Positions 11,394 through 30,375 of a stretch of 63,743 nucleotides of DNA are shown one piece after another. Each line of letters begins with the position of its first letter. Position 1 is the stretch's first letter. Below the pieces are notes generated by a model. It saw only the letters and a program-made list of their open reading frames with translations, was not told the DNA's origin and did not search any database. The position numbers and the translations under genes are program-made. Source of the stretch: Alphaproteobacteria bacterium (lineage in GTDB: Bacteria; Pseudomonadota; Alphaproteobacteria; Rs-D84); assembly GCA_009783145.1 (NCBI GenBank), contig WRHR01000006.1:1-63743 (forward strand), read 5' to 3'.

Positions 11394-12455
11394 CTAAATA
11401 AGACTACGGATTGCGCCCGCCGCGTCAAACTTCGGTTTTTCTCGCATCAATATAATCGCCGCGCAGACCAGCACGGGCATAGCGGTCAAAATCCCGAACA
11501 GGCAAAGCGACAGAACCCAAAGGTCTTCGGACGCGGACTTCAACATTGGCGCGTCCTTCGCCGCATGATGACGCACGGCAAGAAACGACGTCGCCGCAAA
11601 AACCAGCCCCAAGCAAAGGAACGCCAGCGCGCTTTCCGTCAGAATGAACAGGACGAATACCATTACCGCGATTGCCCGCGCAAGCCACATGAGCTTCTTA
11701 TACCAGGATTCTTTCAGCCAGCCGGACGGACGGACGACGCGCGTCATAATGCTGCCGATAATCGCAAGCGCCGCCGCCATCAGAAACAGAATGTGAATTA
11801 CCGTCAGATGCCCCAATTGGCCGAATCGGAAGAACTCCGGCTGCATAATCAGCCCGAATGTCAGCGCCGCCGTCAGGGCTATGACTATGAAATCCAGATC
11901 GAATTCCGCGCGGTTGTTTCGAATCATCCAGCGCCCAGCGCCGAATCCGAACAAGACCGCGGCGAATTGAACCAGCGCCGCATGCCAATTGCCGAACGCG
12001 CAAAGCCCGACCACGACGGCGACAACGAACGGAGCGGCGACATCGGTCCTTTTCTTCCACCTTGTCCACCGGAGCCTTGGCGAAGGCGGATTTTCCTTTG
12101 TCTTTATAAGACTTCCGACGGATTCGACGCGCCAGCCCGCGAACAGAGAAATAACGAAAATACATGCCGCCGTAACGGTTAAAAGCCCCATCGATACTCC
12201 GTCGCGCAAAGCGTCGAAATTCTGGTGAGTCAGCAGCCAGACCGCGATGAACAAAACCGACCAGCCGGCAAGGGTCTGACGCTTGGCTTTGAAATCTCCG
12301 GGCAGGAATCGCTTTGAAATTTCCGGCGCGAAAATCCAGAAAATCGCGAATATGGGCAGGCACAGCAAAGCGCTCCAAAAGAAATCCGGACCGCGCAGCG
12401 CGATATTGTTAAAGCTGCTGACTGCAGATTGAACCACAAGCGATGGGTCAAACAT
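11394..12455 (-). CDS. multi-pass membrane protein of unknown function
   Basis: Not recognised. 353 residues with roughly nine or ten hydrophobic segments and short polar loops. Two short basic loops carry Trp and Arg (TRWKKRTD, GWLKESWYKKLMW). The first basic loop coincides with a palindromic repeat (12065-12090) read as ENPPSPRLRWTRW, so it probably varies between strains. The start codon lies 43 bp from that of the divergent methyltransferase gene. Nothing in the sequence indicates a substrate. Confidence 0.75.
   Translation of the reverse strand: MFDPSLVVQSAVSSFNNIALRGPDFFWSALLCLPIFAIFWIFAPEISKRFLPGDFKAKRQTLAGWSVLFIAVWLLTHQNFDALRDGVSMGLLTVTAACIFVISLFAGWRVESVGSLIKTKENPPSPRLRWTRWKKRTDVAAPFVVAVVVGLCAFGNWHAALVQFAAVLFGFGAGRWMIRNNRAEFDLDFIVIALTAALTFGLIMQPEFFRFGQLGHLTVIHILFLMAAALAIIGSIMTRVVRPSGWLKESWYKKLMWLARAIAVMVFVLFILTESALAFLCLGLVFAATSFLAVRHHAAKDAPMLKSASEDLWVLSLCLFGILTAMPVLVCAAIILMREKPKFDAAGAIRSLI
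12065..12090. repeat. in-frame palindrome in a membrane protein gene
   Basis: A TCCACC...GGCGGA version of the element (one arm mismatch) around GCCTTGGC, encoding part of a cytoplasmic loop. Confidence 0.7.
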
Positions 12456-13273: not shown

Positions 13274-13303
13274 TACAAGGGCGGAATGTTTTCCGCCCTT
13301 GTA
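13274..13303 (+). terminator. perfect hairpin after the SRP RNA
   Basis: A 13-bp stem (TACAAGGGCGGAA and its complement) with a short loop. The T tract is interrupted, and the hairpin ends just before the -35 box of the next unit, so it insulates the two transcripts. Confidence 0.75.
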
Positions 13304-13304
13304 T

Positions 13305-13333
13305 TTGCATTTTCTTATTTTACGATGTATAAT
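13305..13333 (+). promoter_or_regulatory. promoter of structured leader RNA, copy A
   Basis: TTGCAT at 13305-13310, 17 bp, TATAAT at 13328-13333. Exactly the same two boxes and spacing drive copy B at 30090-30118. Confidence 0.85.
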
Positions 13334-13339
13334 TGCGCT

Positions 13340-13512
13340 GACGCCAAGCGTTTTGGCGTTGAGGAATAAGAACCTCTTACGGTTGTCTTAAAAAGACGTA
13401 AAACTCCTGTCCAGGCAGGAGGCCGTCGAATAAGGCCTATGTCTAATAAGGCGGGCTATCCGTATAGTTCTTATCCTCCTGCCACTTTTTTTCTAAAAAA
13501 AAGTGGCTTTTT
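13340..13512 (+). ncRNA. structured leader RNA with attenuator, copy A
   Basis: A candidate riboswitch or attenuator not matching any class I know. In order: a hairpin ACGCCAA/TTGGCGT (13341-13359); GAGG...CCTC; a domain closed by GGCAGGAGG (13414-13422) pairing with CCTCCTGCC (13475-13483) and containing GGCCGTCGAATAAGGCC; then a terminator hairpin GCCAC.../...GTGGC (13481-13507) followed by Ts. The closing stem and the terminator share the bases GCC, so they compete. CCTCCT can also pair with the AGGAGG before the downstream ORF. Copy B at 29925-30083 is homologous, with compensatory changes in the first hairpin (ATGTCGG/CCGACAT). Confidence 0.75.
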
Positions 13513-13529
13513 AATTTAAGGAGGAAAAA

Positions 13530-13733
13530 ATGACAGAACCGCCGACCGACGAAGAAACAAAAACCTTCCAAACGATGATTACCCTGGCCATCGCGGAACT
13601 CTCCGAGTATCCTTCTATTATGGCCTTGTTATGCGGAGTGCAAAGAATCAAATCCGAATACGAAAAAATTCTTAGCCGGCCGCCTATTTTTTTGGGGTTT
13701 ATACTGATAACTCAGCAAAATTATTATAAATGA
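13530..13733 (+). CDS. small acidic protein behind leader RNA A (C-terminus altered by insertion)
   Basis: Not recognised. 67 residues with an acidic, helical N-terminal part (TEPPTDEETKTFQTMITLAIAEL). It starts after a strong AAGGAGG ribosome binding site immediately downstream of the leader terminator, so its expression should depend on read-through. The last ~14 residues (FLGFILITQQNYYK) are encoded by the 87-bp inverted repeat of the adjoining island, which implies that the original C-terminus was replaced when the island inserted. The second leader RNA precedes an unrelated small basic protein. Confidence 0.7.
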   Translation: MTEPPTDEETKTFQTMITLAIAELSEYPSIMALLCGVQRIKSEYEKILSRPPIFLGFILITQQNYYK

Positions 13734-29724: not shown

Positions 29725-29904
29725 TTATATCTCTTCTCTAACAATATACACGCCTTTGTAACGCTTCTCCAAGTCTTTGAGTCTTCGGTTTCGTTTTGTG
29801 CATTCGAAGAGATATTTCTTTATGAAATTTAATGCGCGTTTGTTTTGAAGCTCGTCGTCCATGATTGCCTGCATGTCTTTTCTTGAATATAATTTCAAAT
29901 TCAT
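29725..29904 (-). CDS. small basic protein behind leader RNA B (59 aa)
   Basis: Not recognised. Highly charged and helical (LYSRKDMQAIMDDELQNKRA, then NFIKKYLFECTKRNRRLKDLEKRY), without signal peptide. It starts after GGAGG, 21 nt downstream of the leader terminator hairpin, the same layout as the small ORF behind leader RNA A, although the two peptides are unrelated. The chosen ATG at 29904 fits the ribosome binding site; a longer frame would run into the terminator. Confidence 0.75.
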   Translation of the reverse strand: MNLKLYSRKDMQAIMDDELQNKRALNFIKKYLFECTKRNRRLKDLEKRYKGVYIVREEI

Positions 29905-29924
29905 TTCTGCCTCCGTTTGGTTAT

Positions 29925-30083
29925 AAAAAACCACCTTTAATTTTAAAGGTGGCAGGAGGTGAAAAACTACTACAAGAGATAGCCCGTCTTATTAGGCCGA
30001 GGCCCTATTCGACGGCCTCCTGCCTAGACAGAAGGCTTTCTTGCAAGAGGTTTTTCAGCCTCAATGTCGGAATGCCCGACATC
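29925..30083 (-). ncRNA. structured leader RNA with attenuator, copy B
   Basis: Homologue of the RNA at 13340-13512. First hairpin ATGTCGG/CCGACAT (30082-30064) directly after the start site; GAGG...CCTC; GGCAGGAGG (30024-30016) pairing with CCTCCTGCC (29959-29951); an internal GGCCGTCGAATA segment; and a terminator hairpin CCACCTTTAA/TTAAAGGTGG (29952-29931) followed by six Ts. The first hairpin differs from copy A at most positions yet stays paired. CCTCC is complementary to the GGAGG of the downstream gene. Confidence 0.75.
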
Positions 30084-30089
30084 AAGGCA

Positions 30090-30118
30090 ATTATACAATG
30101 AAATATGAAAAAATGCAA
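30090..30118 (-). promoter_or_regulatory. promoter of structured leader RNA, copy B
   Basis: TTGCAT (30118-30113), 17 bp, TATAAT (30095-30090), identical boxes and spacing to the copy A promoter. The start is expected at about 30083, just at the first hairpin. Confidence 0.85.
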
Positions 30119-30144
30119 ATGTAGGGGCGGAAAGTCTTCCGCAA

Positions 30145-30375
30145 TTATTTTTGCGCATGAGCAATTTCAGCACACATACGGTTATGGCGGTATATGTTGC
30201 GCGCAAGGTCGTCAGAAATTACATCCCAATCGGAATCGCGCCCGTATATGGGCTCGCAGACTTGGCGGATTACTACGCGCGTCGCCGCCGGGGTGGCCGG
30301 CTCAGTCTTTGATGGTCCAGTACTTGCGCAGCCTGTCGCGAATATCAGCAGCGCCGGTATTAAAAACTTCCGCAT
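30145..30375 (-). CDS. small lipoprotein, o-spanin-like (Rz1-like)
   Basis: 76 residues with a lipoprotein signal peptide (LIPALLIFATGC, lipobox Cys at about residue 16), then a Pro/Thr-rich stretch and QVCEPIYGRDSDWDVISDDLARNIYRHNRMC. It overlaps the 3' end of the upstream gene by 74 bp in another frame, the arrangement of phage Rz/Rz1 spanin pairs that fuse inner and outer membranes at lysis. No other lysis or phage gene is nearby, so the pair may be a domesticated remnant. Assignment rests on architecture only. Confidence 0.6.
   Translation of the reverse strand: MRKFLIPALLIFATGCASTGPSKTEPATPAATRVVIRQVCEPIYGRDSDWDVISDDLARNIYRHNRMCAEIAHAQK

Follow-up and report, generated by a model that had tools for sequence, protein, structure and literature searches.

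What kind of RNA is encoded twice in a 63,743-nt alphaproteobacterial contig (GenBank assembly GCA_009783145.1, WRHR01000006.1; the whole stretch is called the window here), each time between a promoter and a small open reading frame (ORF)? The initial annotation, made from the letters alone, described a pair of structured leaders, copy A and copy B, resembling an unknown riboswitch or attenuator. The comparative analysis below leads us to favour, with some confidence, the reading that both leaders belong to the C4 / sRNA-Xcc1 kind and have been turned into transcription attenuators. On the sequence evidence, the RNA probably decides whether the gene behind it is transcribed.

The two units consist of the following parts, in window coordinates:

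13305-13333, plus strand: copy A promoter TTGCAT-17-TATAAT, read from the sequence (hexamers 13305-13310 and 13328-13333)
13337-13518, plus strand: copy A RNA, full covariance-model match, 147.6 bits
13339-13361, plus strand: copy A 5′ hairpin P1 (ACGCCAA/TTGGCGT), in which all 8 pairs covary
13361-13376, plus strand: copy A hairpin H2 (GAGG/CCTC), whose loop ATAAGAAC is a1 and pairs with a′ (H-type pseudoknot PK1)
13378-13382, plus strand: copy A b1 (TACGG), partner of the b′ loop
13404-13409, plus strand: copy A strand 1 (CTCCTG), partner of strand 2 (hairpin Hd)
13414-13422, plus strand: copy A strand 2 (GGCAGGAGG), forming the 5′ arm of the C4-like closing stem
13423-13454, plus strand: copy A hairpin Hc with a conserved GAATA...AATAA internal loop; 5/5 pairs covary
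13455-13468, plus strand: copy A hairpin He, whose loop is the guide b′ (CCGTA), supported by covariation
13467-13474, plus strand: copy A a′ guide strand (GTTCTTAT)
13475-13483, plus strand: copy A strand 3 (CCTCCTGCC), forming the 3′ arm of the closing stem; its final 3 nt open the terminator
13481-13512, plus strand: copy A intrinsic terminator (strands 3:4 and a U run)
13520-13524, plus strand: copy A ribosome binding site (RBS) GGAGG, read from the sequence
13530-13733, plus strand: copy A ORF, 67 aa, no Pfam, NCBIfam or PHROG match
30090-30118, minus strand: copy B promoter TTGCAT-17-TATAAT (hexamers 30118-30113 and 30095-30090)
29919-30086, minus strand: copy B RNA, 140.2 bits; also an Rfam sRNA-Xcc1 match of 34.0 bits (E = 1.4e-4)
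30039-30062, minus strand: copy B H2 with a1 (TGAAAAAC) and b1 (TGCAAGA)
30016-30024, minus strand: copy B strand 2 (GGCAGGAGG)
29951-29983, minus strand: copy B He hairpin with b′ (TCTTGTA), a′ (GTTTTTCA) and strand 3 (CCTCCTGCC)
29925-29953, minus strand: copy B intrinsic terminator, its GCC common to strand 3
29725-29904, minus strand: copy B ORF, 59 aa, related to the one that follows the C20 copy

Reading the window confirmed most of the layout first described: the identical promoter in both copies, a leader (about 165–175 nt) with an intrinsic terminator followed by GGAGG and ATG, and the closing stem GGCAGGAGG/CCTCCTGCC with a terminator starting on the same GCC. The leaders of copies A and B fold far better than shuffled sequences (z of −5.9 and −8.6, respectively), and a promoter-like site lies about 7 nt ahead of nearly all family copies. 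Because the surrounding genes are housekeeping genes (lpxB, ftsJ-like, rho, hisS, ompA-like), both copies sit in ordinary chromosome. Directly 5′ of the promoter, both copies also carry a palindrome, GCGGAA...TTCCGC (13279-13300 and 30126-30146), which is missing before the third copy discussed below (L036) and is a candidate upstream terminator or operator. At gathering scores, an Rfam scan of the window returned tRNAs only; no Rfam family reaches its cut-off at copy A or B.

The description of the copies as a pair did not hold. A BLAST-type search added a third copy from the window's genome and homologues from relatives; a BLAST of copy A against phages gave no match. The covariance-model search that had been proposed was run with a model, R1, built from 21 copies, and returned many homologues with covarying stems before different genes, among them nine copies in the window's genome with E < 1e-6, R1 E-values being rough. 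Within the same GTDB family, 175 of 183 genomes have an R1 match, as do 188 of 201 in the order and 26 of 337 in an even sample of the class (nearly all of 1–2 Mb), the genomes being mostly metagenome-assembled. A closed 1.0-Mb relative, G035, has 32 copies with the full architecture; 24 of them score at least 68 bits and 8 form a second subtype at 20–36 bits. When weak R1 matches (about 17–24 bits) were checked, one in phage P1 proved to be a plain terminator and three in G035 were alike. Matches near 20 bits can therefore be plain terminators, so only full-architecture copies were counted.

With a first core pattern, matches fell in named contigs apparently from termite guts (hosts guessed from isolate names) and none in viral contigs; a second core pattern gave three viral-contig matches, at least one beside phage tail-like genes. 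In one contig called viral (L217, about 12019-12200; IMGVR_UViG_3300024269_000278), the RNA occurs within a few kilobases of phage tail-like genes, perhaps at a prophage border. Tandem copies exist, and core-only partial copies that lack the 5′ target element adjoin full copies (L068:1692-1839, L072:1321-1485 and L080:1694-1854); in L080, b1 of the full copy fits the guide loop of the partial copy better than its own loop. We found no open literature on the alphaproteobacterial branch, which does not prove that there is none.

Covariation supports each helix of the RNA. The P1 hairpin, H2, PK1, Hd, Hc, He and the terminator are 83–99% paired with many two-sided changes; in the helix controls, shuffles gave 0 of 500 and slid controls collapsed. 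The compensatory change first noticed between the P1 hairpins of copies A and B extends to two-sided changes at 8/8 pairs in 21 sequences, and the same is seen at 6/6 pairs of PK1, which joins the H2 loop to the strand before CCTCC. The sides of the closing stem (GGNNGGAGG/CCTCCNNCC) are 98.9% paired and vary in step. In 82 held-out copies, this stem shows 759 Watson–Crick pairs, 28 G-U pairs, 2 mismatches and 46 distinct pairs; it was searched for in each copy, which favours pairing but not variety of forms. The GG at its start is invariant (21/21 copies). Over the helices, G-U pairs exceed A-C oppositions, 96 to 21, and therefore the sense strand is the functional RNA.

In the terms used for phage C4, a1 and b1 correspond to the H2 loop and the segment that follows H2, and a′ and b′ to the strand ahead of CCTCC and the He loop. 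By sequence, a′ and b′ pair with a1 and b1 of the same RNA, giving a double pseudoknot. The structure first proposed lacked the two pseudoknot helices, which are the ones that identify the RNA. Guide sequences differ from copy to copy, and among 84 non-redundant copies both a′ and b′ match their own 5′ element better than those of other copies (p = 1e-4 each); these tests were made without L209, L210 and G035:902748, the helix finder having misplaced the closing stem in a few divergent copies.

Two lines of model comparison point the same way. First, a permissive Rfam scan matched sRNA-Xcc1 (RF02221) over its whole length to the core, at 36.6 bits (cut-off 53; model positions 1–87). RF02221 matches 8 of 8 genomes tried with E < 0.01 (down to 2e-8; best 50.4 bits), against 0 of 14 controls, all matches to alphaproteobacterial loci lying below the gathering score of 53 bits (copy B, 34.0). 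Second, in the reverse search, R1 matches RF02221 loci with E-values of 8.6e-7 and 2.9e-5. The sRNA-Xcc1 plan, a closing stem round two hairpins and a 3′ single strand, is present, and its helices covary. By comparison, Rfam C4 (RF01695) reached at best 19.9 bits in seven genomes, against a cut-off of 45 and 68.8 bits for phage P1 itself. Low-score Rfam matches to c4-a1b1, CopA, STnc430 and others were taken as chance.

The RF02221 loci themselves carry more than the Rfam model covers. We read 28 of them from other Pseudomonadota and found an upstream element, GGGG-loop-CCCC followed by b1, that pairs with the core, together with copies of a1 and b1 flanking the Shine–Dalgarno sequence of the next ORF (for example, CCGAAAA-GGAG-CAAACAGC-CATG in L107). 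In own-versus-other tests, the locus's own 5′ element ranked best in 21 of 28 cases and its own RBS in 18 of 28 (p = 2e-4 each). Antirepressor or SymE genes often follow these loci; the families seen there are, among others, Bro-N, KilA-N, P22 antirepressor (P22 Ant), Rha and SymE. Rfam models the core of sRNA-Xcc1 only; loci L092–L121 add the upstream target and, mostly, a second target round the Shine–Dalgarno sequence. At L099:2890-2958 there is a second C4-type RNA (Rfam c4-2, 34.8 bits, cut-off 41); the RF02221 locus some 1.3 kb away stands before a P22-type antirepressor. By its sequence features, sRNA-Xcc1 resembles an RNA of the C4 type, yet no clan is given for it in the Rfam tables. 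The core order, the strongly covarying long-range guide helices and the reciprocal covariance-model matches place the window's RNA with the C4 / sRNA-Xcc1 antisense RNAs.

The attenuator part of our reading comes from helices that compete. Strand 2 can pair with strand 1 or strand 3, and strand 3 with strand 2 or the 3′ arm of the terminator, which reuses the last 2–5 nt of strand 3. In each of the 102 copies with a detectable terminator, the terminator stem and the closing stem have 2 nt or more in common (mean 4.1); the energies of the two states, computed without the pseudoknots, lie within 3.0 ± 3.9 kcal/mol of each other. Helices 1:2, 2:3 and 3:4 are each conserved with covariation, and three mutually exclusive conserved helices make an attenuator pattern. 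The claims of mutually exclusive helices, an attenuator-like leader and an RNA that is itself the conserved unit are upheld. The closing stem could, however, shed the shared bases and coexist with the terminator.

In the mechanism that we propose, helices 1:2 and 3:4 together would mean termination, with the gene off, and helix 2:3 would mean a folded C4-like core, stabilised by a1b1:a′b′ pairing, with antitermination and the gene on. RNase P-type cleavage at the GG of strand 2, as happens with phage C4, might free cores from transcripts made earlier; a free core would then bind a1b1 of new transcripts, remove the support of helix 2:3 and switch the gene off. The outcome would be a self-limiting, sequence-addressed control derived from a phage immunity RNA. 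Both the sign of control and its trigger are what we infer. A more speculative extension, which we rate as rather doubtful, is that a domesticated phage immunity RNA serves as a genome-wide set of sequence-addressed attenuators: a released core would silence its own leader and similar leaders whose a1/b1 match, and expression of paralogous exported proteins would thereby become mutually exclusive or cross-regulated.

The position of the RNA relative to genes bears on this proposal. In G035, 29 of 32 copies precede an ORF with a Shine–Dalgarno sequence at a median distance of 21 nt (interquartile range 19–22), compared with 10% of random positions. The ORFs mostly encode proteins with an export-like N terminus (signal peptides judged by eye) or HTH proteins. 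About ten are paralogous Cys-containing export-like proteins (MKKHLIIAG...VTKCV...NKYCWCKM...WVF; L136–L186, for example at 11727, 260994, 323666 and 364789), with no Pfam or NCBIfam match where tested; a similar C terminus occurs behind the copy in L055. At L043 and L045, the terminator is followed by a repeat, GGGGGTATGTGATTATTTT...TTTGCCCCC, and no ORF. In the window, the copies precede no phage antirepressor, and their ORFs, which have no family match, stand among housekeeping genes. The 67-aa and 59-aa products are unrelated to each other, as first stated, but the copy B ORF has relatives behind other copies, being identical at 27 of 42 residues to the ORF of the third copy.

In many copies, strand 3 and a′ may also cover the downstream Shine–Dalgarno sequence. 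A gapped pairing test of strand 3 plus a′ against the copy's own RBS gave p = 1e-4 for G035 and 0.001 for other alphaproteobacteria, and a weak 0.02 for the window's order; an exact-repeat test for RBS targets in alphaproteobacteria was negative or borderline (p = 0.05–0.3 for exact matches in the window's own group). RBS targeting is therefore claimed only in part. For copies A and B, the match at the RBS does not extend beyond the generic GGAGG, and the suggested pairing of CCTCC with it is no better than that of any CCTCC with any GGAGG.

The main rival to the attenuator reading, to which we give a minor though real share of probability, is that these are stand-alone trans-acting C4-type sRNAs, which stop at the terminator and whose processed core acts on mRNAs or phage transcripts elsewhere, the ORF being reached by readthrough or expressed on its own. 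In Xanthomonas, sRNA-Xcc1 was mapped as a processed 88-nt RNA (PMC2996969), a length that fits the core alone, and C4-like sRNAs of Acinetobacter baumannii are abundant and processed (PMC5320573). The variation of guides between copies, the tandem copies and the two loci with no ORF behind them would also suit such sRNAs. The G035 spacing argues against them: a gap of some 20 nt leaves no room for a separate ORF promoter, and a terminator that shares closing-stem bases in every copy would spoil a stable sRNA.

A metabolite riboswitch, in which a ligand would bind the conserved Hc/He domain and control termination, now seems very improbable. The GAATA...AATAA internal loop of Hc is conserved, the alternative helices are switch-like and the downstream genes differ, all of which would suit a riboswitch; yet GAAA replaces the loop in L039 and L046, and the downstream genes (exported, HTH and small proteins) share no common pathway. 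The pairing segments are guide-like, with second targets at the RBS in relatives, and the architecture is that of C4. The unknown riboswitch of the initial annotation accordingly gives way to the guide helices, the C4 core order and the reciprocal model matches, and nothing points to a metabolite ligand.

About as improbable is a toxin–antitoxin-like module, with the RNA as antitoxin for a toxic small ORF behind it. One RF02221 locus (L109) precedes a SymE toxin gene, as in Xanthomonas integrons, where sRNA-Xcc1 lies upstream of symE (PMC12444791), and small ORFs follow both window copies. Most ORFs behind alphaproteobacterial copies, however, look exported or HTH, none matches a toxin family, and the window copies show weak pairing at the RBS, which lies at the heart of type I control. 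Finally, a DNA element or chance (a terminator plus a repeat, or inverted-repeat mobile DNA), suggested by the multicopy state and by 20-bit matches that can be plain terminators, is refuted for copies above about 60 bits and has almost no probability left, given the sense-strand G-U bias, the pseudoknot covariation and the fixed order of promoter, RNA, terminator and RBS.

If the attenuator reading is right, two families that Rfam lists separately, sRNA-Xcc1 and the C4 group, would be united, and sRNA-Xcc1 would gain a complete structure together with a likely target in the adjacent RBS. It would also mean that some 30 attenuators, in a 1-Mb genome from which little regulation would otherwise be expected, go back to a phage lysogeny RNA. 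The guide–target code is short and readable, which would make its predictions directly testable.

Among the nearest known systems is C4 of phages P1 and P7 (RF01695, with c4-2 and c4-a1b1). Both RNAs have first a1 and b1, then the closing stem, the capped hairpin, the hairpin with b′, the a′ strand and the closing stem again, with the a1/b1 targets upstream in the same transcript, in the leader of a regulated gene. The phage P1 record lists, in order, a1, b1, C4 (77 nt), a2, b2 and icd, and a possible strand 1 can be read there by eye, TTACGCCC against GGGCGTGA. The alphaproteobacterial core starts with GG where the RNase P site of C4 lies; C4 has a′ and b′ loops, is cut from its precursor by RNase P at GG and blocks an RBS (PMC5320573). 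Unlike the alphaproteobacterial branch, C4 of phage P1 has no terminator and, by the phage P1 annotation, acts by translation block at a2/b2 of icd/ant. The C4-like Group 1 sRNAs of A. baumannii resemble the present family in that many C4-like RNAs with variable guides occur in one genome; they differ in being reported as processed and, in the accessible portion of that report, in having neither a conserved downstream gene nor an attenuator architecture (PMC5320573).

With sRNA-Xcc1, the alphaproteobacterial copies share the order and lengths of the core, the AAUA...UAA hairpin, the guide loop, the guide strand and the upstream H2/a1/b1 element. They differ from it in adding a 5′ hairpin and a U-run terminator that overlaps the closing stem, in their weak or absent a2/b2 at the RBS and in the genes behind them. 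Three competing helices, the last of them a terminator, also govern the classical trp-type attenuator (1:2, 2:3 and 3:4). Unlike trp-type attenuators, the leader RNAs described here have no leader peptide, and their sensor appears to be RNA–RNA pairing.
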